A stretch of 64,000 nt of DNA, from NCBI GenBank assembly GCA_012862575.1, contig BLSF01000001.1, positions 1,116,001 to 1,180,000 on the forward strand. The letters are read 5' to 3'. This DNA is from Parietichytrium sp. I65-24A. Taxonomy: Eukaryota; Sar; Bigyra; Thraustochytrida; Thraustochytriidae. How positions within the stretch are numbered: position 1 is the first letter of the stretch; each line of letters opens with the position of its first letter. The translations under genes were made by a program, and so were the position numbers. Below are positions 2,681-44,779 of this stretch, piece after piece. The notes beneath the pieces are model-generated. The model saw only the letters and a list, made by a program, of their open reading frames with translations, was not told the origin of the DNA and did no database searches.

Positions 2681-3568
2681 CCACTTCTTCCAGTAAAAAA
2701 TATTAAATACAGCCCCTCTTTCTCTAACAAAATAACAAAATCCACGAAACTAGATGATTCTCTCACTTCCCTTCCGTCTCGCTCGCTCGTACACTGCAAC
2801 CCTATTCATGCACAATGCGTACACTTATGCATACGCGTACGCCGCGTACGTCCTCAGAAGTGAGCGATGGTGTTAGAGAGAGAGTGAAGAGAGTGACAAC
2901 GACTTGCAATCTCCTCTATCTATCTACCTCTATCTCTCTATCTCCTCAAAGGAAGGCAGACTTCGCAGAGCAGGAGAACAACGAAGCAGTACTCTTTCGC
3001 TTTGCGAAGCGATTTTTAACGCTCTTTTTGGTTATTTTGGTTGTTTTGTCTCTTTTTCCTTCATCGCATTCGTCACATCCCAATGCATTTTACCTCGTTT
3101 TTGCATTAAAAACAAAAATAAACGTAAATTAAAACAAATAAAGAATTTGATTCACGTTTTAGATTGATTCTTTTTCTTGGTTTCATAACACAGCCATGCG
3201 TTTCATCACGCGAACCCTTCCTCCTCTCAAGTGAAAACAGAGCCAGACTCCACTCACACTCTACGTTGGTCACAGCCACTGTGACATACTTGTAACATAC
3301 TTTTGGCATACTTTTGACATACTCGTGACATACTGTGGGACCGACGCGCACTAACAACACTCTGCTGTTCTTGTGTGGTCGGAAGCTGAAAGTTGCGTGG
3401 CTGCCGCGCAGGTACATACAAAAGGACACGTGCGAAGCTATACAATAAGTTGGGAAGTGAAAGGTTGCGGAGAAGGAGCGTTCAACGCTGCAAAGGGTGG
3501 AGACGATAGTTGTAGTTCAGGCGAATTCGGAGGAGTGAAATGCCAAGGTAGAGAGAAGCTGGGCGAGA
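2681..3568. promoter_or_regulatory. Divergent intergenic region between the ubiquitin-like and PKA-R genes
   Basis: About 0.9 kb that must hold both 5' regions. It contains a CTATCT-rich stretch near 2913-2945 and the 11-bp tandem array at 3281-3335. No gene is seen. Confidence 0.5.
3281..3335. repeat. 11-bp tandem repeat, 5 copies
   Basis: Five successive variants of a GTGACATACTT unit, lying about 235 bp upstream of the PKA regulatory subunit ATG. The core CATACT is kept in every copy. Confidence 0.85.
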
Positions 3569-4954: not shown

Positions 4955-5825
4955 GAGAAGCACGAATGTTTGTGCCTGAGCCTTGCATCGTCACTCATCT
5001 GCTATTCACCTGGCGCTACTTCTTGTATCCGTGGCTACGATACGAATTTCGCAGACCAGACCGCCTGAACATGTTTCAAAGACGTATGTGGTGGGTGGTG
5101 AGCCAAGAATAGATAGCCCTTTCAACCAACCTCGGTGCAGTTCACACTTTTTTGCTGGCACCAAAAAAGTATTCTTGCATTATCCCACAGTCAATCATCT
5201 AAATTTCAAACGAGCACACTCCCCTACATTCTTATTATACCACAAGTTGAGAAGACTGATGTACTCAGTACTCTTCCGTGAAAGAAGGCAGCAAAAAGAT
5301 CGCGTCCCCCTGCGTGAACCAAACAACAATGCATAACCGTCGCACTTCGCAAATCGGTCCCACACAGCCTCGAGGCTAGCGTACTCACTTTCCCTGTATC
5401 AGCCACAGCTCTTGACTGTGAGGTCAATCAAGAGCGTCCCGCGAGAGGCCAAAGCTATACCTAATTAATACACAGCTCTGTCTTGGTAAGTCCTGTAAGA
5501 CTCAGCTTGCGTTCGTTCAATCGACTCCAGAGGTCCTAGTGCAGTCTCGTTGCCAGCTGCTAAGCGCGCCGAATTTTCGCGACCGCGAGACGAATGACGT
5601 ACAAAGCAAATACAACTACGATAGAATACATCGAAAGTAAGAAAGGAATCGAATGTAAGAAAAGAAAGTAAAAGAAAAAACGCGGCAGTGAGCGCCGTTC
5701 ACTTTCACTTTCACCTGCACGTTCCGGGCCGTGGCAGAAACGCCGGCATGCATGCGAAGCAGCGGGTCGCGGTCGTTGTTGTTGTCCGTAGGTTTTCATA
5801 GAGCGACCACGGGAGGTCGCCAAAA
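4955..5825. other. Intergenic, nothing recognised
   Basis: Region between two genes on the same strand. It holds A/G-rich short repeats near 5630-5680 (GAAAGTAAGAAA-like) and CACTTT repeats near 5699-5715, just upstream of the next ATG. No coding sequence is supported. Confidence 0.5.
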
Positions 5826-7406
5826 ATGGGTGCTCTTGCGCGGGTGTTGGCCCGCGGAAGACGCTGGGTGATACTTGTTGCGCTTGTGCTGAGGAGCGCG
5901 AGTTTGCAGCGCGTTCAGGGAGAGGAGAGCAAGCTCAGAGTGGCACACGTGTTTTCTGCGTTTTCAGGGACCAGTAGCAGCGAGCAGGTCGAAGCGCATA
6001 TTGTACAGAAGAGCTGGCAGATTGCGGCGGAGAGAGCTGCTGAAATCGGAATAGAGGTGGAGCTGACAAACGTGGCGCTAAGCAAGGACCTCGCATTTGA
6101 CAACCTTGATATATGGCACAAAACTCTAGAGATGGACGACAGCAACTCTGTTCGGAGTGTAAATGGCAAGCTTGTCCCAGCCATTGGAGACATTCTCTCG
6201 CGTGCCAGCTCAAGTAGTCAAGTCGACTGGATCATTTACTCAAATGCCGATATTGGGTTTGCTCCTGACTTTTACGAGAAATTTGCTAAACTTATAGGAG
6301 ATTACAAGCGAGCAAGAGAGGACCCGTCCGCGTTCTTCAAGCTCCTCAAGGCATCATTTGGAATGTTTAGGTACTGCCTCAGAAAGGAAGTCTCCTGTGG
6401 TAATTTTGGTCGCTGTTGGGGCGACGTGCAGGAGTATTTTGAAAACATTGGAGGTAGAGCTAGTAATCACCTCGAAGTCACAATTCTGGCCAAGTATCTC
6501 TGGGGTGAGGCAAACGATGAGTTGTCCCGAACGAAGGCGCGTCGAGAATCCGGCAAGACTCTCTCTTGTTGGAGGGAGCTTGAGACTGTCGACGAGTTCT
6601 TTCAAAAGGAGACCAGTCTGTCTCCAGACGAGTTGCGATTCGACGGCGACATGAACCTTCTGATGAAGTCAAACATAGAAGAGGGATACAAATGGCCGTC
6701 TGGGACAATAACCCGGATGGACATTCCAGAAAGCGAAGAGGCGTATGAGCTTGTCATGGAAGTGGCTGCTAATGACGACATCGCCGCCTTGGTAAACTTT
6801 GCGAGATTCGTAGGCAAGACGCACCCTGGAAATGATGTCTTCTTCTTTCGAAGAAGTGATCTTCCCGAAATGGTCAAGCGCTTCAAGCATCCGATGGGAC
6901 TGCGACCATGGGGTATGTGGCTCCCTTTAGCATTCCAGGAAAAGTTACCCTGGCGGAGAGAAGTTGGCACGCGAAAAAACATTTGGACCTTTCATCTCGG
7001 CGTTTCTGCAAATGTCTGGAAATCGCAACTGAAAAGCGATGGGTCTTTAATCCTCCAGCTCGCTGCGGACTGGTTCATATCAAGTGAGTACAAGTTTGGG
7101 GAGCAATTCAGCGAGGTTGACGAGAAGTGCAATTCAATACAACTTTGGCGTTCAACAAAATTTTGTGCGTCGGAACCTTCATACTGCCAAGGAACGGTGA
7201 GGCTCTCTTGCGTTAGACGCCAAACTCGCCAAACTCGAGACGTACAGTCGTATTTGTCCCTCTGCCGCAAGGAGCGTTTACAATTTCAGGTAGTCTCCCC
7301 TGAAAAGTGCAACTTTTGCAACTTTCTATTCAGTGTTTACCATGCAGAAGAGCTCCTTTCTTGCTCAATCACAGACAATCAAGAGCTTGAAAGGCTGCTG
7401 CTTTGA
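5826..7406 (+). CDS. Secreted/Golgi glycosyltransferase-like protein, family not identified
   Basis: 526 residues, ATG in a good context (AAAAATGGG). The N-terminus is Arg-rich then hydrophobic (about 14-30) and ends in RVQGEESK, which fits a signal peptide or signal anchor. Residues 135-150 read WIIYSNADIGFAPDFY; an NAD-type acidic motif after a hydrophobic beta-strand, followed by an aromatic pair, is typical of nucleotide-sugar-binding GT-A folds. A further acidic, aromatic stretch (DVFFFRRSDLPEMV, about 336-349) and many cysteines in the last 100 residues suit a lumenal enzyme. I infer a GT-A-like enzyme of the secretory pathway; donor, acceptor and CAZy family are unknown. Confidence 0.6.
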   Translation: MGALARVLARGRRWVILVALVLRSASLQRVQGEESKLRVAHVFSAFSGTSSSEQVEAHIVQKSWQIAAERAAEIGIEVELTNVALSKDLAFDNLDIWHKTLEMDDSNSVRSVNGKLVPAIGDILSRASSSSQVDWIIYSNADIGFAPDFYEKFAKLIGDYKRAREDPSAFFKLLKASFGMFRYCLRKEVSCGNFGRCWGDVQEYFENIGGRASNHLEVTILAKYLWGEANDELSRTKARRESGKTLSCWRELETVDEFFQKETSLSPDELRFDGDMNLLMKSNIEEGYKWPSGTITRMDIPESEEAYELVMEVAANDDIAALVNFARFVGKTHPGNDVFFFRRSDLPEMVKRFKHPMGLRPWGMWLPLAFQEKLPWRREVGTRKNIWTFHLGVSANVWKSQLKSDGSLILQLAADWFISSEYKFGEQFSEVDEKCNSIQLWRSTKFCASEPSYCQGTVRLSCVRRQTRQTRDVQSYLSLCRKERLQFQVVSPEKCNFCNFLFSVYHAEELLSCSITDNQELERLLL

Positions 7407-13834: not shown

Positions 13835-16015
13835 TCAGTCAAATAAAAATTTTTGTTCTTCCTCCTCAGCTTCTGTAGATTGCGAACCATTGTAGCGAGT
13901 AGCATTTCCTTGGCCGTACAGCTTTTCTCGCCCTGTACCCTTCTGTCGAATCGGAGACGTTTGTTGCGGCCTCGTCAGCCCTGGCGGCTCATCCAAGTCA
14001 ACTTGAGGCGCAGTTCGAGAAGTCGGGCCCGATTGCCCGTTCAGAGCAGGCGGGGCCGGATAACCGAGTGCGCTAGCAGTAATGCCAGCCATCCGAAGTT
14101 GGTTGAGAAGAAAAGCCTCCTTATGGCGGAGCTCTTGAACAGTTCCATGAAGTCTGTGATTCTCTTCTTCGATGGCTTGAATTCCCTGATCCTCCGCATC
14201 TTGCGCAGAACGCCTCTGGAAATCCCAGCGCTCTTTCATGCGATCGAGTTGCTGGCGCAGGTGCTCATTTTCGCCCCGCAGCTTATCGACTGCGACTGCG
14301 TCCTTCTGACCATTGTCGGTGTGCACAAACACTTCCTCCAAATTTTCTAGCTTTCGCTGGAGCGCTTCGTTCTCCATCATGGCCGTGCGAAAGTTCCGCT
14401 CTGCGCTGACTTCTCGATACCTCATCGCGCCGTTCTCTGCTCGCAAAACCTCAATTTCCTTCGCATATCCAGCCAGCACGACTTCAATGCTTGGTCCGGC
14501 GCGATTTGTTGGCGAAGCAACCGAGGGAATACGTTGAGCAACGCCTGCTTTTGGGGAAGTGGGACCAGTCCTTTGTCCCATCGGGGCGTTGGGGGAAAAT
14601 GTGTTGATACCCGGAGGGAATAAGTTCCCTGTTTTGCCCCCGATGCCATCTACAATTGGTGGTAGCATGAGGCCCTCAGAGTCCTCATCATCCCTCCTGC
14701 CGCCTTGGGTTCCTCCATTCTGTCGTAAATACTCGTTTTCGGCTTTTAAAAGACGTATTTCCTCTTTCAAACGGGCGATGAGCTTTTCTTTTGGGTCCAT
14801 GTTGAGCGTGGGCGTGTTCTTGATCCTGCTAGCTCGTGACCCGTACTTGAGTGTGTTCAATGTTTCTTCTAGATAAGAAGCCGCGGGGCTGATACAGCAG
14901 GTCATTAACGCCAGTGAGTTGCCACCCAGACAATCGTTTAGTAGCTTTGTCAGCTTTGAATCGCGGATTGGTATGTGCGCAGAGGCGCTTAACTGGCTCT
15001 GGGTACCCGAGAGAGCACTAATACACTTTGAAAGGACGAATAGAGACTTGTTGATGGAAGTGGTTTCAGTCAGAGTAACACCTTCTGAATTGGTTTGTTT
15101 GAGTCTCTCGCTCCCTGCAAGATCGACAAACCTTGTAATTCCCTCTCGTTTCACTTGGTGGCCGTCCTCATCGATAGTGGTGGCCTCAAGGTGCAGAGTG
15201 AGGATGCTGTGTGAACGGGACGAGTCCTTGTTCAATGAGTGCGAGCCCACGCGCCTGTTACGATGGCCTTCACTCACCACCTCGAATACCTCGTCGACGC
15301 TGTTGCACAACACCACGCAAAGATCCTCCACAAAGAAACCCATCCTGGACGACCATCGAACGGGCAACGAGTTATTGCTCATGTTGAGAAGATCGAAGAC
15401 CTGTTCGTTGTAGATCTCGCAATAGCTCGCTTTGATAGAATACTCTGTGTTGGTTCTCTGCTGCGCCTCGTCAAAGATGTAGTTGACGCTCCGAATAATC
15501 AGCCCGTCAGCATCTGAACCCCCGCGATAGCTTTCGGCGGCAATTTGCTCCTCGTAGCCGCTCATCGTGAATGTTTTACCGGAACCTGTTTGTCCGTAGG
15601 CAAAAACGCACGATTTGTATCCATTCAAAGAGGAGTCCAACAATTTTCGGATACCGCATTCCTCAAAAAACTGCGCTTGAGTCGTACTTTCGTCAAAACA
15701 TCGGTTGAAATTGAACGACTTTTCAGTCTTCCCCGCGCCTGGCACTCTTTGCGCCAGTCGTATAGTTTGACCGTTCTCGGTCTCAACAATATTTGGGTCA
15801 TTGCGCTGCAGCTCTGACGACGAAAGCGGTCTTACACGAACGACCACTTTGATGTTGGTGTCTCCGCTCGTCGAAGGCGTACTGTCCACCGTCCCCTTGC
15901 TCGAAACACTGCTCCGAGTGTTCGGCCGGGAACTCTGATTCGGTGTGCTCCCACCGCTGGGGCCCGAGCTCGGCGTCGTTGTCGTTCGCACCGGGCTGCG
16001 CATTCTACGGTCCAT
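13835..16015 (-). CDS. Kinesin with N-terminal motor, KIF12/kinesin-16-like
   Basis: 726 residues, ATG start. A Ser/Thr/Pro-rich head (1-50) leads to a complete motor domain (about 53-405): P-loop GQTGSGKT (141-148), switch I SSRSH (265-269), switch II DLAGSE (298-303). The stretch GFFVEDLCVVLCNSVDEV and the following GHRNRRVGSHSLN resemble KIF12 (kinesin-16) more than conventional kinesins; I rate the subfamily as probable only. A coiled-coil neck follows (about 405-440), then a Pro/Gly-rich hinge and a second coiled coil (about 510-660). It should be a plus-end microtubule motor. Its cargo is unknown; the nearby axonemal genes make a ciliary role possible but do not prove it. Confidence 0.93.
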   Translation of the reverse strand: MDRRMRSPVRTTTTPSSGPSGGSTPNQSSRPNTRSSVSSKGTVDSTPSTSGDTNIKVVVRVRPLSSSELQRNDPNIVETENGQTIRLAQRVPGAGKTEKSFNFNRCFDESTTQAQFFEECGIRKLLDSSLNGYKSCVFAYGQTGSGKTFTMSGYEEQIAAESYRGGSDADGLIIRSVNYIFDEAQQRTNTEYSIKASYCEIYNEQVFDLLNMSNNSLPVRWSSRMGFFVEDLCVVLCNSVDEVFEVVSEGHRNRRVGSHSLNKDSSRSHSILTLHLEATTIDEDGHQVKREGITRFVDLAGSERLKQTNSEGVTLTETTSINKSLFVLSKCISALSGTQSQLSASAHIPIRDSKLTKLLNDCLGGNSLALMTCCISPAASYLEETLNTLKYGSRASRIKNTPTLNMDPKEKLIARLKEEIRLLKAENEYLRQNGGTQGGRRDDEDSEGLMLPPIVDGIGGKTGNLFPPGINTFSPNAPMGQRTGPTSPKAGVAQRIPSVASPTNRAGPSIEVVLAGYAKEIEVLRAENGAMRYREVSAERNFRTAMMENEALQRKLENLEEVFVHTDNGQKDAVAVDKLRGENEHLRQQLDRMKERWDFQRRSAQDAEDQGIQAIEEENHRLHGTVQELRHKEAFLLNQLRMAGITASALGYPAPPALNGQSGPTSRTAPQVDLDEPPGLTRPQQTSPIRQKGTGREKLYGQGNATRYNGSQSTEAEEEEQKFLFD

Positions 16016-20845: not shown

Positions 20846-23800
20846 ATGAACTCGAACGCAACAAATGCCAACAGCGCCGCGGCTGCCGCCAAGCTGAAGC
20901 GCATGATATCTGAGGGCAGCGGGCCTGGCAGCAGTGACTCTACGAATGCTGCAATAATGCAAGTTGGCACAAAGGTGTTCATACCCAAGGTGAAAGCGCG
21001 CTCAGGCTCGGTTGCATCTGGCAAGCTGGGAGCCAGCAATGGGCAAGGTACGAAACGAAAGTTGAGCAGCAGTAGCTCCGCTGGGTTCACGGCGGAGCAG
21101 CCCCAGCCGTACAACCCCGCAGGCAAGTTGCCGAAAAAGAAAGCAAAAAAGCAAAGCGTTCCGCCGTCAACGATGGTTCAGCAACTTGGCCCCCCTGGGC
21201 AAAGCGCCCCGCTTCTCGCAAAGAACACGTCCACCCTTAAACCTCCCTCGCAGCCCAAACCTGCAAAGCGCACAACTACCAAAGAGACGAAACAGCAGCG
21301 TAAACAGAACGCCAAGATTTTGGAGTTCTTAAACACCAAAAAGGCATTGGAGAAGAAACGCGCTCAGATAGTGCAAAAGATCCGAGAAGCGAGAAGCCCG
21401 ATCGGAGCTCCTATGCCTTTTACTGCAGAGGTAGTACACACAAAGTCGCACTGGGATACAGTCTTGGAGGAGATGCTCTGGATGGCGACTGATTTTATTG
21501 AGGAGAAAAAGTTTAAACAAGCAGTTGCCATAAAGCTTTCTCACGAAGCCAAAGTTAGATGCGATGAGAAGACGGCAGTGAAAATTAGGTCCGCTAAACA
21601 ACTCGAGGATCACAACAGACAACTTTGCGGCAGAGTGTCGGAGGAGGTTCGGCGATTTTGGGATCGCGTCCTTCGCAAGGGTGCGGAGCAGAGAACTACG
21701 GATACGGTCCAAAGCTTTCGTAAAGGGGTATCCTCCTTTTCGGCGGACGAGGGGAGAGCCGAATTGGAAACCCTTGAAAAGGAGGCAGAGCTTCCATTAG
21801 AGGAAGTGTGCACGGATTTTGACCTTGCTGCTGAACAATCAAATATTGAAAACGAATCATATGGAAGGCGATCACATATGGCTGCTGCTGTGGCACCACT
21901 GGAGGGCAATCTCGGCCCATGGCGAAGTATTTGGTCCGGAGGGGCGGCCGTGCCTGCTGACATTGAAGACATTGATCCAGAGGCTCCATTAGCATCGTCG
22001 GCACCGAGCAGTACCCCGCAAAACACTGGAATGGCAACGCGTACTAGGCGGAAGAGCACAGTGTCTCTACCTCCTGCCGAAGTTCAGCAATCCACGCCAC
22101 AGCCCAAAACCTCAAGCGAGACCATAGACGAAGAGCAATGCGACCCAAATTTTGAGTATGTCTCCGAAGGCGCTGACGAGGACGACGAGTCAACTATTTC
22201 TGAGGAAGAGAGAGTTGGTTTTGCTGCGAACATGGGGGCATTATCGGAGCTCATGCAGCTCCGTCAAGATTTAGACTTTTCTCCAGAAGCAGTCGCGGAA
22301 AGTATCATGCTCCGATGCCCTGCCCTCTTGGAGCTCGAGTCCCTCGATTCTGACGTCGCCAACGAGGAGGCAGCCAGCGAGAAAGCAGAAAGTACAGACT
22401 CGGCTGTTGCGGGCGAGGATTCGACGGCAATGGTAGAGGACTCCAATGAAGAGCAAGTCAGAGAGGAAGGCAGCTCCAAGCAAGACACTGAGGAGCCTAC
22501 TTCAAAAGAAGATTCGAAAGAAAGCGATGAGGTCGAGGATGAGGAGAAAGAAGAGGAGCCCGCCAGTCCAGGGGCGGGGGATAATGGTTCAGAAGAAGGT
22601 GACTCAGAAAGTGACCCGTCGGACGAATCACACGGCACTGCAGAACTATCGACGGATATGGAGGTTGTAGGTCTAAGCTATACTCCTGCACTGCAGCTTT
22701 ATTGCAAAATGGCGGGAGATCTGTTGGACGCCTATGTCGACGAAACTGAGGGTCAGGAGTCTTCCGAGGAAGAAGGCAGCAAAAACGCGGAGAACACAGA
22801 AGAAGAGCCCACAGGCAAGGAGAGTAAGTCAAAGCCTTGCCACTGGCTCGTCCCTCGGCTTCTCTCCCGAGACAAGTGTGCGGAGCTGGTAGACCATCAT
22901 TTTGTCGCGCTTCGCTGGCTAGTCGACATGTATAGACGCAGGCTAAGCGCTGTGCTCGCAGACGAACGCGGCCTTGGGAAGGAGACTACGATAGTCGCGT
23001 TCTTCGCGTCTCTCGCTGGGGAGCGAGGGATCTGGGGACCGCACCTTATCTTGACATCTAAAGAAAAGAGTCTTGCATGGGAGCTCGAGCTGCTGACTTG
23101 GTGCCCGTCGCTTTCCGTTTCTAGAGGCTCTGTGTCTGAGACATCGTCCGTTTGCATTGTCACATTTGAGGATGTATGCGCCGACATGGCGCTTTTTCAG
23201 CGCATACCGTGGCATGTAGCAATCTGGGATCTCACCGCAGACAATGTTCTCGACCAGGAGGCAGAGAGGAGGGTCCCGCTCATGCGCAGCCAATTCCGCA
23301 TCGTAGTCTGCGAAAACGAGAAGGAAGCGCAAAGTCATGCCACGCTCTTGTGCTTTGCACTTCTTCCGCAAGTTTTCATCAGTACGGAGGTGACGAAGGA
23401 ATGGGCCAAACGAAAAGGCAATAGCGCTTGGAAAGGATGTGTGAAGAATTTTTGTCTAGCACGCTCTGCCAACGACATCACCGAGATCGAAGATGCGAAT
23501 GTCAAGACAGTAGAGCACGAGTGCGAACCAACTCACAGACAAAAGTTGCTGTTTGAGATGATTTGGAATGCGTTCAAGTTTGCGCGTGAGCAAGAGGCCT
23601 TAGAGGCGGCGAATGCACCCGCGACAAAGACCAAGTCGCGCGCTAAACCCAAAAATCCCATGGAAGCCGCTTGCTCGGTTGCTTTTGAGAAAGTCGGAAT
23701 ATCTTCTGATCTTTTCTTTCCAAATCAGGTTCAGGACGCTTTCGAAGTGGATTCAGTGCCGAAAGCTTTCATGGAGCAGATCTGTGCCGGGCTTGATTTT

Positions 23801-26800
23801 TTGAAACAAAGAGACGAGCCTCTTTGCAACCTCATTTCCCATGACCTTGAGCCCTCACTTGAAATTGAACTGCGGTTGCCCGATGGGAGCTCCCTGCAAT
23901 CAGAATCTGAACTGCACGGAAGAAGGCAAACGACCGTCCATGCGCCATCTCAAGACGGAAAGCTTGTTGCTGTGGAGAGCATCGAGCCTACCGAGAGCCT
24001 CAAAGCTGCAATGAACCTGGAAGCTGTGCGCACGAAGCCTCAGACTCCCATTTCTGTATTTGCTCGGAGAGCAGTACAAGTCGATCTGCGGCCTAAATTC
24101 GGGAGTCAAAAGTATTTGGTGGAGTCGTCCGGGGAATTTCAAGATCAACTTCGCCTGTGCTCCAATCATGTTTCTAGCCGAGCGGTGGCCAGCCTATTTG
24201 CCCCTTTTGCCGATTCGGCTTCAGACACATCTGCTATTGTCACCAGGCGATTTCAAAATGGTGCGAGATCCTCCGCAGTCCTGCAAAAGGCTGCCTCCAT
24301 CGCCAAAGTCTATGCGTCACAAAGACCTTGCGCAAGAGAGCGAAAGCTCTTAGTGATTGCTCACAGCGCAAGGCTGCTTAATACTGCTGAGTCTACCTTT
24401 GCCACTCTTGGCATCCCGTCTGCAAGACTGGACGAAGAAGGAGACGAGGTCCGTACAGCACGCATTGCCTTTCTTGCTCGCTCAGAGTCTGTGCACGTGG
24501 GTTTGTGCGTGGCTAGCGAGCTTGAGGGTGTTATGGGTGTAGGGACAGACTTGGAGTCTGGCCTCGGCGTGTGCTGTGCGGCGATAGTCTTGGACAGGGA
24601 TTTAGACCCCGAGAGTGAATTTGAAGCGGTTGATAAACAACTCGAAGCAATTGCGCTTGCGAATCAGCGAAGAGCCTCCCTGCGTGGCTGGGATGCCAAA
24701 GAATTTGAGATGCACACTTTTACGATTTCGTGGGCTCACGAACTCGAGAAGCTCGCGATCCCAGCTGCAGAGCAGCAAGTTTTCAAGCCCCTTGAGTTAA
24801 GCGAGTTGAAATCTGCCATGCGGGCGAGAACCCGCAAAAAGTTGTACTCTTCCGTGGACGAGATGGTCGAGATGAACCTCTCTAAGGTTTTGGGTCTTCA
24901 ACTGGGCAAACGCACTGCTGGCCGGATTCTTGTTTGTGAACAGAACGACAGTGTGGAGGAAGAGGACGAGGAGGATGTGGCGGAAGCCGAAGCGGCCGAG
25001 GAGGGAGATGGTGTCATCGAAGTTCGTAAAAACGAGGCCTTGAAACAGGGTTTGATGCCGTGTATTGTTCCACTCGAAGAAAGAACGCTTTTCTCAACTG
25101 ACTATACCTACGTCGGGTCCGAGGACCAAATTATCATTGCTAGCTGTAGGCGCCCGCTTGAAGCCCTCTTTGCAAAGGACGGGGATTTGCCCGAAAGCGA
25201 AGAGGCTGCTGACAGCGGTAGCGAGGATCTGCAAGAAACGGCGGTGGAGAAACAGACATTTGTCTTACGCAAGCGCGATTTCAATTTTAGCCTCGACGAC
25301 GACGAGGAGTGGTCAGACTCGTCTGAAGAGGACGAAGAGAATCATGCTGCATCAAACGTGACAAAAATTCTGAGAAAGCCTCCGTTGCGGTCTGAGGCCA
25401 CCCGCTCGTTAGTCGGGTTTCCGGACTTCTCGTGCCCAAGCTTTGGAGTCAAAAGTTTGGCTCACTTCGCAACCAGGTTCGCCTTTCATGGTGGCGGAGA
25501 GCTGATAGTCATTGACCAAAAGCGTATCCCGGATGTGTATAAGGAGGATATCCCAAAGGAAAACGCCACGGCCCAAATCATGGACTTGGACTCCGACCAT
25601 TGCCAAGGCTTGGAGGGCTGGCCTGCCGAGGAGCAGGCGCAATATTGGTCAGTCGCTGACCCTGAGAGTGGCTGGTTTGAAGATGAGTTGTTCCAGGAGG
25701 TTGCTACAGGAAACAAGTCTCTGTTTTACGAGCTCGGACTAGACTCTGGTGAGCGGGAGAAGAATTTTCGCGCATTTTTGAAGGAGATAGATGATGACCC
25801 ATTATCAGCTGGTCGGACATACCACGTTTTTGGGCCCCCCATCTTGGCAGCAGACGAAGGCGAAATCTTAGATGCGGCAGGTGTGGCGGCTCCAAGTCAG
25901 CCTAATAGCTTTGGTGCTGGGAGCGTGCCAAATTTTCATCAGCCAAAGCTCGTTGTGAGCTTTATGCGCGACCGACAAGTCGAAATTGTCAACGACTTCA
26001 ACATGTTCAATGCCGGATTCGAAGAAACAGTCTCAAATGCGTTGCAAAACGTGCTGGGAATTCCAAAGCCAACGGTGGAGAGCGCGCCTTCAGTTGCTGC
26101 AGTCCAGCAGCAGAGCAAGAAACGGAGCGCTTCGGTGGATGCGGAAGATGAAACCAAAAAGAAGCAAAAGTTGGAGAAGAAGAAATCCTCTTCTATTGTA
26201 GGCGCCGCGCCACAAGCGGAGGATCTCTTCGGTGTGCTTGATGAGGAGACAGTCGCCAAACCGTCGCAAGGAGCTGGAGGAAAGGATATCGATTGGCGTA
26301 TTCAGGTCCCAAAGTTGAAAAAAATCAGCACCAAGAAGGACAAAGCAGGAGGCGACAGTACTGTTTGGAGTGCCTGGGAGGATGCTGCGATCCTTCGCGC
26401 GGTCGAAGTATTTGGGCCCAATTGGGGTCTCGTGGCAAGTCTTGTGTCCAAGCCATTTGGTGTTCCAAGAACCGTCTCCCAGGTTACCGAAAGATACCAT
26501 AAAGTTCGTTCGGAGCACAAATCGGCCAGCACATGTCCATGGGTGCTGGATAAGGGCGCTCAGGTAAAGGACATCGCGGACTGGGCCAGCCCGCCGCTCC
26601 ATGTCGCCGACCTTCTGCTTGGCTTTCCCTCTGATCCTAGCGCCCCAGGCACATCTTTTCAGCGATTTTCTCTCGCTGGCCGCGCATCTCTCGGGCCTGT
26701 CGGCGATGGTCACCTGCTTGCTAAGAAGCTGGGGCTTCCGACGTTACCCGAAGCTGAGCGCGAGTCCGTGACATCTGATTTTTCACTGATCTTGTCGTCT

Positions 26801-27763
26801 TCTCGGAGATCTATGAAGTATCCCCTTCCAGAGGACGATTATGCACAGCAACAGTCTCGAAAAGTTCACGCGTCGCAAGCCTTGCACAATTCCTCCGTCA
26901 ACTTCGTCAAATTTGTAAAGGAGCAAATTGAAAAGCAAGCTCCAGAACCGGTCTTACACCGTGTCCGTAGCTCTGCATCAGCCGCGAGGCCGGGAATGTC
27001 TCGCGCTGTATCATCCGCTTCCTCGATCCCGTCTTCAACGCAATCGAGCCAATCGTCTTCGCCCTCTGTGCCGCCAGGAGCTGCTGCTGCTGCCATGCGC
27101 GGAGCGAGGCGCCCACCTCCTCAATCAGCATCAGTGGCTGGACGGCCAGGCTACCACGCGGGTAGCTCAGGATCTCGCCCGACATATTCGCCTCCTTCAG
27201 GATATTCGTCTGGTCCTCCTCGCGGTCCGCCCGGAGCACCACGCTCGAGCTCTTATCCTTCGCATTCCCACGTGCATCCGCCACCTTCTTCTGGACAGTA
27301 TCACGGGCACTATGCTGGGCCAGCGCACCCTTCGTCTTCCACCTCACCACATAAACTACATGCGCCATACGCCTCCCAGCAAGGCTCAGGGGCTTATGCG
27401 TCGGGAACTATGGTTCACGGAAGAAACGCGTCGTCATCCGACCCGCGTATGTATCCGTCGCATCCACAGTCGGCCAGCGCCCCTTACTCTCCATCCGGGC
27501 AACGCCCTCCTTACTCGACTTCCTATCCTTCGCAGCCTCAGCACCAGGTCCAGTCGTCTGGATACCACGGTCACCACTCGCAACCACCTGCGCACCATCA
27601 AATGGGTTCTCAACCTGTGCATCACGGTAGACACATGCCGTATCCAGCTTCCCGCGATTCACAGCAACCAGCGCAACATCCCCAACAACATCAGCATCCG
27701 CACCACCCGCCGCCTCCGCGCCAAGGCGGTCACCACTCACAACACCAGCATCACCAACCTTGA
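20846..27763 (+). CDS. EP400/SWR1-like HSA-SANT protein with inactivated SNF2 ATPase
   Basis: 2305 residues, ATG start, uninterrupted. An HSA domain lies at about 195-265 (KSHWDTVLEEMLWMATDF), the actin/Arp-binding helix of SWR1, EP400, INO80 and Eaf1. After an acidic linker comes an SNF2 ATPase lobe clearly alignable to SWR1 (HFVALRWLVDMY, LADERGLGK at 705-712, GIWGPHLIL). Key residues are changed: motif I GLGKT is GLGKE, the DEAH box is DLTA (795-798), and the LTGTPLQN motif is not found. The second lobe (about 1165-1300) keeps its start but lacks the QxxxRxHRIGQ arginine-finger motif. A SANT/Myb domain follows (about 1838-1895), and the last 270 residues are Pro/His/Ser/Tyr-rich. HSA plus SANT is the layout of EP400 and of yeast Eaf1/Vid21, the NuA4 acetyltransferase scaffold. 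I infer a chromatin scaffold without ATPase activity. Confidence 0.88.
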   Translation: MNSNATNANSAAAAAKLKRMISEGSGPGSSDSTNAAIMQVGTKVFIPKVKARSGSVASGKLGASNGQGTKRKLSSSSSAGFTAEQPQPYNPAGKLPKKKAKKQSVPPSTMVQQLGPPGQSAPLLAKNTSTLKPPSQPKPAKRTTTKETKQQRKQNAKILEFLNTKKALEKKRAQIVQKIREARSPIGAPMPFTAEVVHTKSHWDTVLEEMLWMATDFIEEKKFKQAVAIKLSHEAKVRCDEKTAVKIRSAKQLEDHNRQLCGRVSEEVRRFWDRVLRKGAEQRTTDTVQSFRKGVSSFSADEGRAELETLEKEAELPLEEVCTDFDLAAEQSNIENESYGRRSHMAAAVAPLEGNLGPWRSIWSGGAAVPADIEDIDPEAPLASSAPSSTPQNTGMATRTRRKSTVSLPPAEVQQSTPQPKTSSETIDEEQCDPNFEYVSEGADEDDESTISEEERVGFAANMGALSELMQLRQDLDFSPEAVAESIMLRCPALLELESLDSDVANEEAASEKAESTDSAVAGEDSTAMVEDSNEEQVREEGSSKQDTEEPTSKEDSKESDEVEDEEKEEEPASPGAGDNGSEEGDSESDPSDESHGTAELSTDMEVVGLSYTPALQLYCKMAGDLLDAYVDETEGQESSEEEGSKNAENTEEEPTGKESKSKPCHWLVPRLLSRDKCAELVDHHFVALRWLVDMYRRRLSAVLADERGLGKETTIVAFFASLAGERGIWGPHLILTSKEKSLAWELELLTWCPSLSVSRGSVSETSSVCIVTFEDVCADMALFQRIPWHVAIWDLTADNVLDQEAERRVPLMRSQFRIVVCENEKEAQSHATLLCFALLPQVFISTEVTKEWAKRKGNSAWKGCVKNFCLARSANDITEIEDANVKTVEHECEPTHRQKLLFEMIWNAFKFAREQEALEAANAPATKTKSRAKPKNPMEAACSVAFEKVGISSDLFFPNQVQDAFEVDSVPKAFMEQICAGLDFLKQRDEPLCNLISHDLEPSLEIELRLPDGSSLQSESELHGRRQTTVHAPSQDGKLVAVESIEPTESLKAAMNLEAVRTKPQTPISVFARRAVQVDLRPKFGSQKYLVESSGEFQDQLRLCSNHVSSRAVASLFAPFADSASDTSAIVTRRFQNGARSSAVLQKAASIAKVYASQRPCARERKLLVIAHSARLLNTAESTFATLGIPSARLDEEGDEVRTARIAFLARSESVHVGLCVASELEGVMGVGTDLESGLGVCCAAIVLDRDLDPESEFEAVDKQLEAIALANQRRASLRGWDAKEFEMHTFTISWAHELEKLAIPAAEQQVFKPLELSELKSAMRARTRKKLYSSVDEMVEMNLSKVLGLQLGKRTAGRILVCEQNDSVEEEDEEDVAEAEAAEEGDGVIEVRKNEALKQGLMPCIVPLEERTLFSTDYTYVGSEDQIIIASCRRPLEALFAKDGDLPESEEAADSGSEDLQETAVEKQTFVLRKRDFNFSLDDDEEWSDSSEEDEENHAASNVTKILRKPPLRSEATRSLVGFPDFSCPSFGVKSLAHFATRFAFHGGGELIVIDQKRIPDVYKEDIPKENATAQIMDLDSDHCQGLEGWPAEEQAQYWSVADPESGWFEDELFQEVATGNKSLFYELGLDSGEREKNFRAFLKEIDDDPLSAGRTYHVFGPPILAADEGEILDAAGVAAPSQPNSFGAGSVPNFHQPKLVVSFMRDRQVEIVNDFNMFNAGFEETVSNALQNVLGIPKPTVESAPSVAAVQQQSKKRSASVDAEDETKKKQKLEKKKSSSIVGAAPQAEDLFGVLDEETVAKPSQGAGGKDIDWRIQVPKLKKISTKKDKAGGDSTVWSAWEDAAILRAVEVFGPNWGLVASLVSKPFGVPRTVSQVTERYHKVRSEHKSASTCPWVLDKGAQVKDIADWASPPLHVADLLLGFPSDPSAPGTSFQRFSLAGRASLGPVGDGHLLAKKLGLPTLPEAERESVTSDFSLILSSSRRSMKYPLPEDDYAQQQSRKVHASQALHNSSVNFVKFVKEQIEKQAPEPVLHRVRSSASAARPGMSRAVSSASSIPSSTQSSQSSSPSVPPGAAAAAMRGARRPPPQSASVAGRPGYHAGSSGSRPTYSPPSGYSSGPPRGPPGAPRSSSYPSHSHVHPPPSSGQYHGHYAGPAHPSSSTSPHKLHAPYASQQGSGAYASGTMVHGRNASSSDPRMYPSHPQSASAPYSPSGQRPPYSTSYPSQPQHQVQSSGYHGHHSQPPAHHQMGSQPVHHGRHMPYPASRDSQQPAQHPQQHQHPHHPPPPRQGGHHSQHQHHQP

Positions 27764-30793: not shown

Positions 30794-33700
30794 ATGGAGA
30801 TGGCGGCGAAGGACGGCGATCTGGCAGCGGAGACCGAGTTAGGGATGGAGACGACGGCGCTGGAGCAGCTGGAGAGGACGTTGGGGTCGGCGCTCGGGGG
30901 CGTGCTGGGCAACTCGGCGCTTGTGGAATGCGCTGAGGACGTCGGCGCCGCGGCGAGTGCGTTCGATGCGGCGACGCAGTGCGCCAAGCTCATCGTGCTG
31001 CCCGTGAAGGCCGGGATACAGTGCCGTGATGGGCGTGCTGACGCGCAAGAAGCGCAGAGAACAGAAACATTACCAGAGGCTCGGCAGCAGAAGACGGTGG
31101 CCAGCAGACGTGCACACGACCGCGACAGCGACATCGAGAACTTTTTGAATCAAGTGGTGGAGGAATGGGCAGGATGTGCTGGCGACGCAGAGGAAAAAGG
31201 CAGGCAAGATAACGATGAGGCCACAAGAAGAGCGAGAATACGAGATAGGCTGGAGGACTTGGAGTTGTTGTATCTTGATTTGCAAGCTCGGGACGCCAAG
31301 GAGTCGGATCTAGGTAAACTCGTCGCCGGACCGCCGTGCGCGCAAGCACACCAGAACTTTATGTTTGCGCATGCAGTGTTGAATGATAATCAGCAGACCT
31401 ATCTTTTTCTCGCAGCTGCGCCGCACACCCTGGACTCTTTGCTGAAGTTCAACTACCAGATGCTTCGACCTGCAGCACTTCGGAAAAATCACCCATCAAG
31501 GATCGGAGAAGTCGTGCTGGGGGACTGTGACGCTGCAATGGACAGACCACTTCTGTTTATCATTTACCAGCTCTTGCAAGCGATGGACTTTCTGCACCGA
31601 AAAGGTATTCAGCATAAAAGTATTGCTCCGAATCAGATTTATCTTGAGGACGATCTTTGGGTCCGCGTTTGCCCCCCTGCTCGCTCGCCGAGAGTCATAG
31701 GACAGCCCCGATCCGGACCTAGTCTTCTTGACGGTATGACCTTAAAATGGCGCCGCGGGGAAATTTCCAACTTTGAGTACCTGCTGGCGATCAACGCAGC
31801 TGCGGGAAGGACGATGTCGGACGCCACCTTTCACCCGGTCATACCCTGGGTCACTGATTTCTCGAGCGAGGACCTGAGCGATCCCGACGCCGCTCATTGG
31901 CGCGACCTCACAAAAACCAAGTATCGCCTTGTGAAAGGTGACGACCAGCTGGACATTACCTACGCCAACTCACCAGCTCCGCACCACATAACTGAATCGC
32001 TTTCCGAAATCACCGTGTACATATATTTGGCAAGGGTTACTCCGCTTTCCACATTGAAAAGTGTCGTCCGCAGCAACTTCGAGGCAAAGGAGTACCCAGC
32101 TTCTATGGCGCGAATGTTTGAGTGGACTCCCGACGAATGCATTCCTGAGTTTTTTACGAAGCCAACAGTGTTTGCTTCGCAACATAAGGTTATGGATATG
32201 CCTGATATTCAGCTGCCTCCGTGGTGCGACACCCCCGAAGATTTCATCGAGTGGCACAAGCGAGCACTCGAGTCCCCGTCTGTGTCACAGCAGTTGCACC
32301 ACTGGATCGACTTGAACTTTGGGTACCGCTTGTCAGGCACAGCGGCGATTGAGAGCAAAAACGTGACTTTGCCTCTTCCGTCGCAGCCCCTGCATAGAAT
32401 GCAAAAGAGTCCTGGTTTCGCACAAATATTTACAGAACCGCATCCTCCGAAGCACGAGCTGTCAGGTGCGGATCGCAATCATCAGACAAAGGTGGACCTG
32501 TTCCAGCAATCGTATGCTTTCTCAGCCAAGTACAATCACTATTTGGACCCGGTATATTATCCTGCTTTAGGAACAAATGCTGATCCGGACGTTTTTGCTA
32601 TTGCAAACGTGATTGCAGAATTGTATCTTCGGGGGCCAATTTTCTCGAACGAGAGACTACATGCACTTCGAAAGTGCGATTCGGATCTTTACACTGACGT
32701 CCCGGAGCTTACCCGACTCCCAAAACGCATCCGGATGTTGGTTATGGATCTTCTAGGGATTCAGACCTCTCAAATGTCGTTGCGCGACACCCTCAACTCA
32801 ACCAAGTACGCAGACTTGTTTCCTTCTTTTTTCCAGGTTGTGCATGGGTTCCTATCCGAGTACCACTCTCAATACGAGTGGGCCGGGAGGCTAAAACTAG
32901 TTGAACAGCGACTTTCGAATGTGATCCGAAGCATTGACTGCACTCAACGTCAAGACGCTGTGGAGCTCTTAATGCCATCAATGCTGGAGCTCATTACCCG
33001 AGCGTGCTGCGAACAGACCCGTGCCAGAGCCCCGGCAGTGGTGACTGGAATTCTAGGCGAGTTCACCGACGTTGCCACGACGTTGATCCCGATTATCAGT
33101 GAAAAGTATGAGACGATGCAGAATCGAAATCAGTGGAACCTCGTGGCCTCGGCTGTGGAAAGCAAGACCGTCGCGGCGATTCTATTTTCTTGCGGCCCAA
33201 GGTCGTTCCTCGAGCACTATGTAGATATCTTAGTTAGCACATGTACATGTGTCAGGGCGCCAGCGGGGGCTCGGCAGGAAGCTTCCCGCAGTCTCATAAT
33301 GTTGGCCGAGGACAAACACCTTGGTCTGGGAGTGTCCATTCGAGCAATTTTAGATCCCGTGACCAAACGCTGGGGGAGTACAAAGAGTAAGGGATATACA
33401 AGTACCGAGGACGAAGCGAGCTCTGCGCACTTTATCTCCTTCTACTCGAACGCTTCGGGACAACCGAAGATATTGCTTCATCGCCTGGACAGGTTGATGC
33501 AAGCCATGCGTAGCTACATTCGAAGCTCCACCCCGATGCAGAGCTCGGACATACTCGCAGTGGAAAGTCCCTCCGTTGTGGTCCTTCGGCACATGGCAGT
33601 GCATGCAGGGCCATCGGTGATAGCATCCTGCGTATTGCCGCGAGTGATGACTGTACTTCGGACTTGTTGGCCATCTATGCCAAACAGCCTTTCAGACCAA

Positions 33701-36304
33701 ATCGTGGTGTTGGATTGCCTCGGGATCTTGTTTGCGGTTGTGCCACTACTGACTCAGGAAATCATTGTCGAGTACTTTTTTACGAGGGAGCAATCAATTG
33801 GCGGGTATATGTTGCATGACATGCTCCCGATAGCAATAAATCAGGCGGAAATGCTAAACAGCGGGCCGCTTGTGAAACTTATGCAGCTCTATCTTTCGTG
33901 TGTCCTTGCGTTGATTGCAAACAAGTTGCCACAGAGCAAGAACGGCGTCATCCTGGAACGGGCGTCGCCCATGTATGCTTCCCTCGCAATAGCTCCTGAA
34001 CCCACGCCGCTCGCGTTGTACTCATGTAAACTGCTGTTCATACCGTTTCAAAAACAATGGGGCCTCGAGCGAATCAGATCAGTGTTTCCAAATATCCTTC
34101 CTCCTGCACTTGAGAACATATTACTCGCACCAGTCGGCAAGCCGGAAGTATGCCAAAGCGAGAGTTTAGAAGACGTGGAAACCATGGACTGGCCCAAGTT
34201 TCACGTACCAGCGACGTCTTTTGCAGCAAAAGACATTGGCCGCCCTACGCTTTCATCAAGCAGTGGAGCCGTAACAGAAGGAAATGGCACGGAAAAGGAA
34301 GACCTTGACTTTTACCTGGAAGCACAGCAGAAAAATCCCACTGCAGCTCATACTGGGATCATTGGTAGCACTACTGCCAATGCTGCCAACAATTTGAGCG
34401 TGGGGAGTAACGCGAGCACAAAGCCTGTCGGCTCAGTGGAGCCTGATATACAAACTGGCGGTCGCAAAGACCAACCAAGTTTGCTTTCCCTTGAGAAACG
34501 CTCATTTGATTCGTCACAGCAGGCGTCTGAATCAGCTTGGCTACTTGGCGGGTCGGAAGAAGAAGGTCCGTCTGAGAACATTAAAGGACGATTGCTGCAC
34601 AGCATCAAGGCGCACTCCGGGTCCATTGTGACGATGGGTGTGTCTCGTGATGAGAAAGTCTTGGCGACATCTTGTCGTTCGAATATTGTGCGCTTGTGGA
34701 ATATTGCAGGTGCCGGCCCGAGGTCAATCGGAGAGCTGAATAATAAAAACCGCCATGTCGTTGGCCTCTCTCTAGTGAATGGCGGAACGAAGTGTATTTT
34801 GCTTGACGGGGGTCTGCGACTTTGGGACTGCCAAGGAGGTCAGACAACCGTGCTACCTATTGATGTTGCCCATCGTCCAGTGTTGGCTCTTGAAGCTGCA
34901 GGAGACATTCCAAACGGCGGAGAAGTCGTATTCTATGCAAGTACTGTCGCTGGAACGATCGACGTTCTCGACCTGAGAGTTCCAACTGCAATTGTTGCCT
35001 CCCACCAACTTCCATATTCTCCAGTTTCAAAAGCCCCCAGCAAAGGGTTTGATCCCCGAGGACTTTCTGCTGGCTCGCTTGCTTCGGGTGGTGCATACAA
35101 CCAGGGTTGGATCGCTGGTGCCCGAGGGTCCGGCTTTGTGTCCGTTCTGGACAGTAGAACTGGCGGGATACTGTCGAACTGGAAGGCCCATGAAGGCGCT
35201 GTGATGAGTCTCTTCTCCGTGCAAAAAACTCAGCTTTTCGGCGCGCAAGCCGACAAGTCCAATTCGCAGAGGTTTGGCATGGATCCAAGCTCTGCGCTAT
35301 TGACGATATCTGCCGAGGGCTCGGCTCGGGTCTGGGATTTGGGAACAACTTCCTCCTCGCAGAATTCGGCGTCGTATTACCGTCCTGTGTGTAAGCTCCG
35401 CATTCTTGGTTTCCCGCACGTATCTCGGTTCTCGAAAGTGCCGGCTCCAGAATTGGAGCCTAGCCCGCTCATCCGAAGCTGGGTTGAAGAGTCGGCTGCG
35501 CATAATGCGGTGGGGCAAGATCGATTCTTAAGGCCCGCTAATCTTGCTCTTGGTGGTGGAATCAGTCGCCAGCGATCGCTCTCTGCCGATGAGCCGCTAT
35601 GGATGGATGGCGAGGCTGGGTTCGCAGGGGGGTTGTCACGCAGAACCGAGAGTATCGGTTTCGACCACGAAAGGTCGCCTGCATACAATGAGAACGGAGT
35701 GTCGGAGAGTTTGTTCTCACCGATTTCTCCGGTTTCGCTGCCGCCAGATTCGGACAATCAAACCGGTGTGGAGGAGATTTCGCGAAGCTGGTCAACAGAG
35801 AGCAGAGGTGTGACGGGCTCGGCCGGAGCCAGTGCGCAAGGCGCTTCCGCTAGCCTTCTCGACACTGTTGTTGCAACCAGCGCGGCGGCAGCTCGAAGCG
35901 CAAGCGCCTCCATATCATCAGTAGCACCGACATTTTCGGAGCTCAGCTCGATGTCTTCTGGGGCACCGAAGCCTTCTGCCGCAATCAGGAAGAACTTGCA
36001 AAAGTTTGGTCGAACACAGGTGTCCATCCCGTACTGTGGGGTTGCGGCAGTGTATCAAGACCAGAAATCAGCCGGCTCTCTAACCTTGGCGATGGGCTCA
36101 GAAAACCGCCTTTGCGTTGGGTACTTCACTCACGACCAAAGTCCAAAGCCTATGGACGTCCAAGCGCGCTATATCCCTATTGTCGAGCGCGACGGTGCGG
36201 AGGTTAGCGCAGACCGTCTTCGCATCAGTGTCGTTCGAAATCTGTCCCTCCGTAGGCTTCTCCTTGTGGGCTCTGACTCGGGCCACCTGCATGTGGTTCA
36301 CTGA
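30794..36304 (+). CDS. WDR81: WDR81-like protein: kinase-like, BEACH and WD40 domains
   Basis: 1836 residues, ATG start, no intron. The order is that of WDR81: a protein-kinase-like region (about 190-300, with FLHRKGIQHKSIAPNQIYLEDDLWVRV in place of the catalytic loop, HRD and metal-binding motif missing), then a BEACH domain (about 315-540: SNFEYLLAINAAAGR, HHITESLSEI, WTPDECIPEFF), a long helical middle (540-1200) and a WD40 propeller (about 1265 to the end). In animals WDR81 with WDR91 restrains the class III PI3-kinase complex on endosomes and works in endosome maturation and autophagy. The kinase-like part should be inactive. A Ser-rich insert (about 1590-1720) interrupts the propeller. 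Confidence 0.88.
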   Translation: MEMAAKDGDLAAETELGMETTALEQLERTLGSALGGVLGNSALVECAEDVGAAASAFDAATQCAKLIVLPVKAGIQCRDGRADAQEAQRTETLPEARQQKTVASRRAHDRDSDIENFLNQVVEEWAGCAGDAEEKGRQDNDEATRRARIRDRLEDLELLYLDLQARDAKESDLGKLVAGPPCAQAHQNFMFAHAVLNDNQQTYLFLAAAPHTLDSLLKFNYQMLRPAALRKNHPSRIGEVVLGDCDAAMDRPLLFIIYQLLQAMDFLHRKGIQHKSIAPNQIYLEDDLWVRVCPPARSPRVIGQPRSGPSLLDGMTLKWRRGEISNFEYLLAINAAAGRTMSDATFHPVIPWVTDFSSEDLSDPDAAHWRDLTKTKYRLVKGDDQLDITYANSPAPHHITESLSEITVYIYLARVTPLSTLKSVVRSNFEAKEYPASMARMFEWTPDECIPEFFTKPTVFASQHKVMDMPDIQLPPWCDTPEDFIEWHKRALESPSVSQQLHHWIDLNFGYRLSGTAAIESKNVTLPLPSQPLHRMQKSPGFAQIFTEPHPPKHELSGADRNHQTKVDLFQQSYAFSAKYNHYLDPVYYPALGTNADPDVFAIANVIAELYLRGPIFSNERLHALRKCDSDLYTDVPELTRLPKRIRMLVMDLLGIQTSQMSLRDTLNSTKYADLFPSFFQVVHGFLSEYHSQYEWAGRLKLVEQRLSNVIRSIDCTQRQDAVELLMPSMLELITRACCEQTRARAPAVVTGILGEFTDVATTLIPIISEKYETMQNRNQWNLVASAVESKTVAAILFSCGPRSFLEHYVDILVSTCTCVRAPAGARQEASRSLIMLAEDKHLGLGVSIRAILDPVTKRWGSTKSKGYTSTEDEASSAHFISFYSNASGQPKILLHRLDRLMQAMRSYIRSSTPMQSSDILAVESPSVVVLRHMAVHAGPSVIASCVLPRVMTVLRTCWPSMPNSLSDQIVVLDCLGILFAVVPLLTQEIIVEYFFTREQSIGGYMLHDMLPIAINQAEMLNSGPLVKLMQLYLSCVLALIANKLPQSKNGVILERASPMYASLAIAPEPTPLALYSCKLLFIPFQKQWGLERIRSVFPNILPPALENILLAPVGKPEVCQSESLEDVETMDWPKFHVPATSFAAKDIGRPTLSSSSGAVTEGNGTEKEDLDFYLEAQQKNPTAAHTGIIGSTTANAANNLSVGSNASTKPVGSVEPDIQTGGRKDQPSLLSLEKRSFDSSQQASESAWLLGGSEEEGPSENIKGRLLHSIKAHSGSIVTMGVSRDEKVLATSCRSNIVRLWNIAGAGPRSIGELNNKNRHVVGLSLVNGGTKCILLDGGLRLWDCQGGQTTVLPIDVAHRPVLALEAAGDIPNGGEVVFYASTVAGTIDVLDLRVPTAIVASHQLPYSPVSKAPSKGFDPRGLSAGSLASGGAYNQGWIAGARGSGFVSVLDSRTGGILSNWKAHEGAVMSLFSVQKTQLFGAQADKSNSQRFGMDPSSALLTISAEGSARVWDLGTTSSSQNSASYYRPVCKLRILGFPHVSRFSKVPAPELEPSPLIRSWVEESAAHNAVGQDRFLRPANLALGGGISRQRSLSADEPLWMDGEAGFAGGLSRRTESIGFDHERSPAYNENGVSESLFSPISPVSLPPDSDNQTGVEEISRSWSTESRGVTGSAGASAQGASASLLDTVVATSAAAARSASASISSVAPTFSELSSMSSGAPKPSAAIRKNLQKFGRTQVSIPYCGVAAVYQDQKSAGSLTLAMGSENRLCVGYFTHDQSPKPMDVQARYIPIVERDGAEVSADRLRISVVRNLSLRRLLLVGSDSGHLHVVH

Positions 36305-44648: not shown

Positions 44649-44779
44649 GAGAAATCTTTGGGCGATTGACGATCGTCAATTGTAGCAACTTTCGGGACAA
44701 GAGTGTGGATAGCAAGGTCGTTGTTGCCTTTTTTGTTGAGCTTTTTTATATAGATATAGTTGGAGCGGAGACCTTGAAA

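Follow-up and report, generated by a model that had tools for sequence, protein, structure and literature searches.

A thraustochytrid HSA-SANT protein with a degenerate SWR1/EP400-type motor, a probable scaffold of NuA4 type

The locus and its domain layout

The window considered here is a stretch of 64,000 nucleotides from Parietichytrium sp. I65-24A (contig BLSF01000001.1, positions 1,116,001 to 1,180,000 of the forward strand), and all window positions given below are counted from its first letter. Its central feature is one frame on the + strand, 20846..27763, which starts with ATG and runs for 2305 codons without a stop. The 2305-aa product (hereafter the window protein) consists of an HSA domain, an acidic linker, a degenerate SNF2 motor, a SANT domain and a tail rich in S, P, H and Q, in that order, as delimited by the frame itself, by Pfam, and by stop and codon statistics. 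A sequence-only reading of this DNA had claimed that HSA, ATPase and SANT are all present in one protein, and this was borne out by Pfam, with lobe 1 standing for the motor. Neighbouring stretches of the window, at 13838-16015 on the - strand and at 30794-36301 and 44666-46705 on the + strand, match the kinesin, BEACH and ODAD1 (outer dynein arm docking) families, which suggests a flagellated eukaryote.

The HSA domain occupies residues 199-259 (21440..21622, +; Pfam 2.5e-7) and would be expected to form the actin/Arp4 helix. Its best PDB matches are EP400 (1.9e-11), then SRCAP (2e-7) and then EAF1 (3.3e-5), and yeast SWR1 is not among the 8 PDB matches of this domain at E<=10. The acidic linker (residues 420-664, 22103..22837, +) contains 31% D+E. 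The phmmer alignment of the protein to SRCAP also covers this linker, and its composition-bias term is high. No EAF1 or EP400 chain was matched when the segment containing the SANT/Myb domain (residues 1840-1887, 26363..26506, +; Pfam 2e-6) was compared to PDB with phmmer at E<=10, and the kinship of this domain therefore rests on its position and on Pfam. The tail, defined by composition, spans residues 2061-2305 (27026..27760, +) and is made up of 20% S, 19% P, 12% H and 10% Q. When the whole protein was used in a phmmer search, SRCAP (2.6e-26) and EP400 (7.5e-26) were equally good matches, and beyond the HSA region and lobe 1 no EP400 stretch passed.

The motor and its altered motifs

Lobe 1 of the SNF2 motor spans residues 681-856 (22886..23413, +) and, aligned by phmmer to human SRCAP, EP400, SWR1 and many SNF2 proteins, is secure beyond doubt. 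The Pfam SNF2-rel_dom match is confined to residues 688-795 (7.6e-9; positions 5-132 of the 290 in the profile), and Pfam did not find Helicase_C in the protein. Walker A has changed from GLGKT to GLGKE at residues 709-713 (22970..22984, +), with the P-loop Lys (K712) kept and the Thr/Ser replaced by E713, and Walker B from DEAH to DLTA at residues 795-798 (23228..23239, +), with the first Asp (D795) kept and the catalytic Glu lost. In the place of motif III the alignment puts CENEKEAQ for TGTPLQN (residues 822-829, 23309..23332, +); motif Ia is also lost, and a motif scan found neither LTGTPLQN nor the HRIGQ of motif VI in the protein. The coordinates of both altered motifs and the two absences are exactly as the sequence-only reading had given them, and its broader statement that the ATPase is altered at catalytic points holds for the Thr/Ser and the catalytic Glu but not for the Lys and Asp that are retained.

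The extent of the divergence was measured on an alignment (A2) of 30 homologues, against which the window protein keeps 35 of 103 near-invariant columns and has 8 gaps. These homologues comprise 29 SNF2 proteins taken from prokaryote records and a single eukaryotic SWR1 encoded on a MAG contig. They come from 34 loci tried out of 80, of which three whose frame, as read, showed no motif VI pattern and one with a frame of 63 aa were excluded, so that the rows lean to intact proteins. None of the marks of an active SNF2 ATPase (GK[T/S], the Glu of DExx, TGTP and HRIGQ) is found in the window protein, nor is the H2A.Z exchange motor with intact motifs that defines SWR1/SRCAP. Judged by its motifs, the motor is of the SWR1/EP400 type and catalytically dead; nucleotide binding without hydrolysis may be possible, because K712 and D795 survive.

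Lobe 2 appears as a weak, marginal remnant at residues 1162-1263 (24329..24634, +), without motif VI, its match falling in the right place and order. The lobe-2 segment matched no Pfam family, and residues 919-1341 gave no SNF2 match when compared to PDB by phmmer. A test segment chosen by eye, residues 1100-1340, scored 7.3 bits against an HMM of nine lobe-2 sequences from the same genome (reached by 0/2000 shuffles, best 5.5) and 7.6 bits against a 42-sequence lobe-2 HMM (0/5000 shuffles, best 7.0), in both cases by a small margin. Scored within the whole protein, lobe 2 reached only 2.7 and 3.0 bits, under some of the shuffles, and hhalign gave it a probability of 24% with an E of 8e-4. The earlier statement that the fold remains alignable is thus solid for lobe 1 and weak for lobe 2.

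Between the lobes lies a stretch without established homology (residues 857-1140, 23414..24265, +). The spacing from motif III to motif IV is ~346 aa, compared to 465 in the intact SWR1 on contig C30 of the same genome (see below) and 377 in a MAG-borne SWR1 (L018). It ranges over 175-328 in the seven further paralogues that allowed measurement, and over 159-169 in 13 bacterial rows of A2, the measurable ones among the other 29. The gap in the window protein is consistent with a reduced INO80-family insertion, of which it is no proof. A structure predicted by AlphaFold2 from the motor as a single sequence had a pLDDT of 32.9 and was discarded. With A2 as input, and hence with a model steered by an alignment of intact homologues, the mean pLDDT was 63.4 and the pTM 0.55. 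Taken in blocks of ten residues, the two lobes mostly score 76-92, with some blocks at 50-72 (lobe 1 mostly 79-92, with some blocks at 55-72; lobe 2 mostly 76-91, with some blocks lower). Among the matches of this model, Foldseek ranks human EP400 from the TIP60 complex first by E-value (9cac_A, 2.7e-22, TMq 0.44, rmsd 28.7), followed by SRCAP. Comparison to the same EP400 chain by VIA gave a Z of 22.6 and an rmsd of 4.8 over 385 residues; other SNF2 proteins outscore EP400 in this comparison, one of them with the top Z of 24.1.

That the window protein remodels nucleosomes with an unorthodox but still active ATPase is very unlikely. The retained K712 and D795 would suit such an activity, as would the example of human EP400, whose solved chain aligns with DEMQ at motif II and IDSPLHN at motif III, even though H2A.Z incorporation by recombinant EP400 has been reported (PMC7239659). 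Motif change alone is therefore no proof of inactivity, and the sequence-only reading, which took the ATPase of EP400 to be active, passed over these altered motifs of the solved chain. In the window protein, however, motif VI is missing altogether in the alignment, as are the Thr/Ser of Walker A and the catalytic Glu, in addition to the losses at motifs Ia and III and in the near-invariant columns. Intact motifs in another register, which would have told against the earlier reading, were also sought: a whole-protein scan in any register found no GK[ST], TGTP, R[IVL]GQ or STRSGG, and the only DE[AGCST][HDQNR] strings, DEGR at 301 and DESH at 593, both lie outside the motor, which led us to reject an active ATPase hidden in a different register. 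A decaying pseudogene or an assembly artefact, to which the fast divergence might point (a terminal branch of ~1.5-1.7 substitutions per site in the trees), is extremely improbable. At residues 1-165 and 2061-2305 a shifted frame does beat the open frame in codon usage score, but in both lobes the codon usage is somewhat closer to that of the C30 SWR1 in frame than in the shifted frames (0.784 versus 0.724/0.765, and 0.794 versus 0.761/0.760). Under the base composition of the frame, the chance of meeting no stop is ~1e-44 for all 2305 codons and 7e-13 for residues 665-1300, and the other five frames across 20846-27763 contain 61-101 stops. The pseudogene was rejected on these stop and codon statistics, which uphold the earlier claim of a 6.9-kb open frame that is not a pseudogene; furthermore, HSA and SANT are still recognisable, and the gene sits on a 1.29-Mb contig.

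An intact SWR1, NuA4 families and a proposed scaffold role

A search of the 42.5-Mb, 172-contig assembly found two HSA matches at E<=0.001, the window gene and a SWR1 on contig C30 (locus L003, G000:C30:361000-370000, ORF 76-7056, -). The latter provides the second, intact SWR1 that had been sought as a check on the sequence-only reading: it has SNF2-rel_dom (9.2e-82), Helicase_C (5.9e-26) and HSA, with GLGKT, DEAH, TGTPLQN and HRIGQ all intact. Its best PDB match is SRCAP, and Pfam did not match SANT in it. Searched against the genome, the window protein gave no full-length match except itself. Walker A GK[T/S] is kept in 14/14 SNF2 loci read, a selection from 30 match rows that includes the C30 SWR1, and its loss in the window protein is therefore no habit of this genome. 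Families of NuA4 or shared subunits were also matched in the genome, namely Tra1_central, MOZ_SAS (MYST) at three places, MRG, a DMAP1-like SANT and YL1, together with a weak match to EPL1 (4.8e-5).

The C30 SWR1 carries four acidic modules before its motor, at frame residues ~277-640, which end in EL..LK/R.EAEMS.EEL at frame residues 305, 407, 496 and 608. The single acidic stretch ahead of the SRCAP motor looks like one of these modules, which are possibly multiplied histone-chaperone segments. Residues 1720-2240 of the C30 protein contain a C-terminal WW domain and sub-threshold matches to F-box-like and right-handed beta-helix families, features that seem unusual for SWR1. Elsewhere in the genome, at G000:C57:241444-244434, an SNF2 match has its lobe 1 split by ~2 kb; this is probably one gene with a large insertion, because each piece lies in a 1722-aa open frame.

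Searches for relatives of the window protein yielded 65 pattern stretches in viral_contigs and 593 in genome_contigs, none of which was confirmed, and the same is true of 3 pattern stretches found with the C30 motor in viral_contigs. Five weak loci in viral_contigs (20-30% identity) from another alignment, A1, were set aside. Two MAG contigs are worth recording. L018 (PBRS01000004.1, labelled Rhodobiaceae MAG) carries, in separate frames and so with likely introns, a SWR1 of eukaryotic type that includes HSA and is 72% identical to C30 in lobe 1; the contig is probably eukaryotic contamination in a bacterial MAG. L019 (DYPS01000006.1, labelled Desulfosporosinus MAG) has an INO80-like SNF2 frame in which stop codons break up conserved sequence, as would be seen in those ciliates where TAA/TAG encode Gln, and is possibly ciliate contamination.

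The window protein is probably the scaffold of a NuA4-type histone acetyltransferase; in function it would correspond to Eaf1 and to EP400 on its NuA4 side, with a dead motor retained. The HSA domain would bind actin/Arp4, with DMAP1/Swc4, the SANT domain would bind Tra1/TRRAP, and EPL1 would bring the MYST acetyltransferase into the complex. The motor between HSA and SANT would no longer hydrolyse ATP and might be retained as a folded spacer or docking surface, and H2A.Z exchange would fall to the separate intact SWR1 on C30. We infer both the membership and partners of such a complex and, for the motor, the absent ATPase activity and the scaffold role. In published structures Eaf1 is the hub of NuA4, with its HSA on actin/Arp4 and its SANT on Tra1 (PMC9643008), and EP400 is described in a similar scaffold role in TIP60, where its SANT binds TRRAP (PMC11995519). 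Fly DOM-A is reported to promote H4K12 acetylation independently of its ATPase activity, and the function of yeast Eaf1 to be unaffected by an inserted Domino ATPase domain (both PMC7239659). It therefore makes functional sense for a scaffold to give up catalysis and retain HSA and SANT.

Kinship and comparison with known systems

Trees of lobe 1 and of HSA lean in different directions. Maximum-likelihood trees of lobe 1 join the window protein and human EP400 with a UFBoot of 66, or 75 when L018 is added; lobe-1 identity is higher to SRCAP (67/182) than to the C30 SWR1 (61/187) or EP400 (54/168), and the AU test rejects no arrangement at 0.05 (lowest 0.066). The HSA tree places human EP400 and SRCAP together, apart from the window protein (UFBoot 98), and an HSA quartet prefers the window protein with C30 by 6.2 lnL. 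With HSA and lobe 1 taken together, the same quartet has this pair ahead by 1.9 lnL. In larger combined sets, the union of the window protein with EP400 falls below the best tree by 5.2 lnL with 5 taxa (AU 0.23) and by 7.3 lnL with 13 taxa (AU 0.17), in neither case being rejected, and a combined 12-taxon tree joins the two at a UFBoot of only 34. The SWR1 group in these trees consists of human, yeast, C30 and one MAG-borne sequence only, and with these sequences the trees do not separate EP400-like descent, a lineage-specific SWR1 duplication and an earlier split. A further candidate link between the window protein and EP400, P-x-L after WELEL, was dropped when paralogues C24 and C7 were also seen to carry it.

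Two histories can be weighed, either of which is compatible with the NuA4 scaffold explanation. In the first, which is the model of the sequence-only reading that Eaf1 arose by loss, the protein is a relic of an early EP400-type ancestor with HSA, ATPase and SANT, its ATPase being lost as in Eaf1 lineages. This is possible but rather doubtful: the lobe-1 trees, the AFFA and WELEL residues common to the window protein and EP400, the alterations of human EP400 itself at motifs II and III and the best Foldseek match all point to it, but the HSA tree, the two quartets and the combined sets go against it, the SWR1 group is small, and long-branch attraction between the two may play a part. The alternative is that a SWR1/PIE1-like gene was duplicated locally, or that an Eaf1 gene took up SWR1 sequence, and that one motor then decayed, so that the window protein would be convergent with Eaf1 and no intermediate. 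Such a history is plausible, though short of probable. The HSA quartet favours it, trees with the window protein next to C30 or outside are about as good as the best combined tree, and ERGIWGPHL in lobe 1 is common to the window protein and C30; yet the lobe-1 trees point towards EP400, no arrangement is rejected by the AU test, and the C30 SWR1 lacks a SANT match, so that in this history SANT was either lost in C30 or gained in the window gene. The earlier reading saw the protein as a possible intermediate and as support for the derivation of Eaf1 from an EP400-like ATPase through loss. Of this, what stands is the combination of HSA, altered motor and SANT in a maintained frame with an intact SWR1 apart from it, but the history is not established by the trees.

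It can be proposed, tentatively and with the balance somewhat against it, that an EP400-like HSA-ATPase-SANT scaffold was ancestral in eukaryotes and gave rise to Eaf1 by repeated motor decay, the window gene being part way along and its dead motor a docking platform for NuA4. SWR1, EP400, the window protein and Eaf1 can in any case be drawn as graded forms, with no demonstrated line of descent. In the published fusion model, which PMC4358907 and PMC6089883 cite from Auger et al. 2008, Eaf1 and SWR1 were combined into EP400/p400, merging NuA4 and SWR1; if the ancestral reading is true, this model is reversed. The coexistence of the two kinds of protein is as such less novel, because PMC6089883 records a p400-like protein as predicted in Acanthamoeba, and in fungus-like moulds an orthologue of p400 together with a Swr1-like protein. 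No dead-motor Eaf1/EP400 was found in the open-licence literature, in the titles and abstract openings among the matches listed. The two domains of Eaf1 flanking a dead SWR1-type motor, in a genome with an intact SWR1 as well, suggest that a scaffold can persist while its motor is lost in situ, and the direction of change becomes testable through relatives. In the window protein, the engineered Eaf1-ATPase chimera and the ATPase-independent Domino-A would have their counterpart in nature.

Comparison with known systems places the window protein between familiar types. EP400 and, by description, Domino-A resemble it in having HSA, SNF2 motor and SANT in the same order, followed by a low-complexity tail containing P and Q, and EP400 in particular provides the best PDB match of the HSA domain and the best Foldseek match of the modelled motor. 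EP400 nevertheless keeps GLGKT and the Glu of motif II (DEMQ), where the window protein has GLGKE and DLTA and is without motif VI. With regard to the PMD, HD and RUVBL-binding insertion of EP400, the phmmer matches of the window protein extend to no further EP400 stretch, and its motif III-IV gap is enlarged. Yeast Eaf1/Vid21 and AtEAF1 share HSA and SANT and the lack of a catalytic motor, and in these cases too the genome encodes an intact SWR1 apart from the scaffold, along with families of NuA4 subunits. As described in the sources cited, however, Eaf1 has no motor between HSA and SANT, whereas the window protein retains a decayed one. SWR1/SRCAP resembles it in HSA, acidic stretch, lobe-1 similarity and enlarged motif III-IV gap, but the window protein lacks the catalytic motifs, has SANT, and belongs to a genome that holds another, intact SWR1. 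PIE1, the Arabidopsis SWR1, is likened here by description only, as having a p400-like architecture, and differs in being required for H2A.Z incorporation (PMC4358907). With the domain order of EP400/Domino-A but not its motif-competent motor, and with a motor where Eaf1 has none, the window protein is neither a plain EP400 nor a plain Eaf1, but a variant of the Eaf1/EP400 scaffold.
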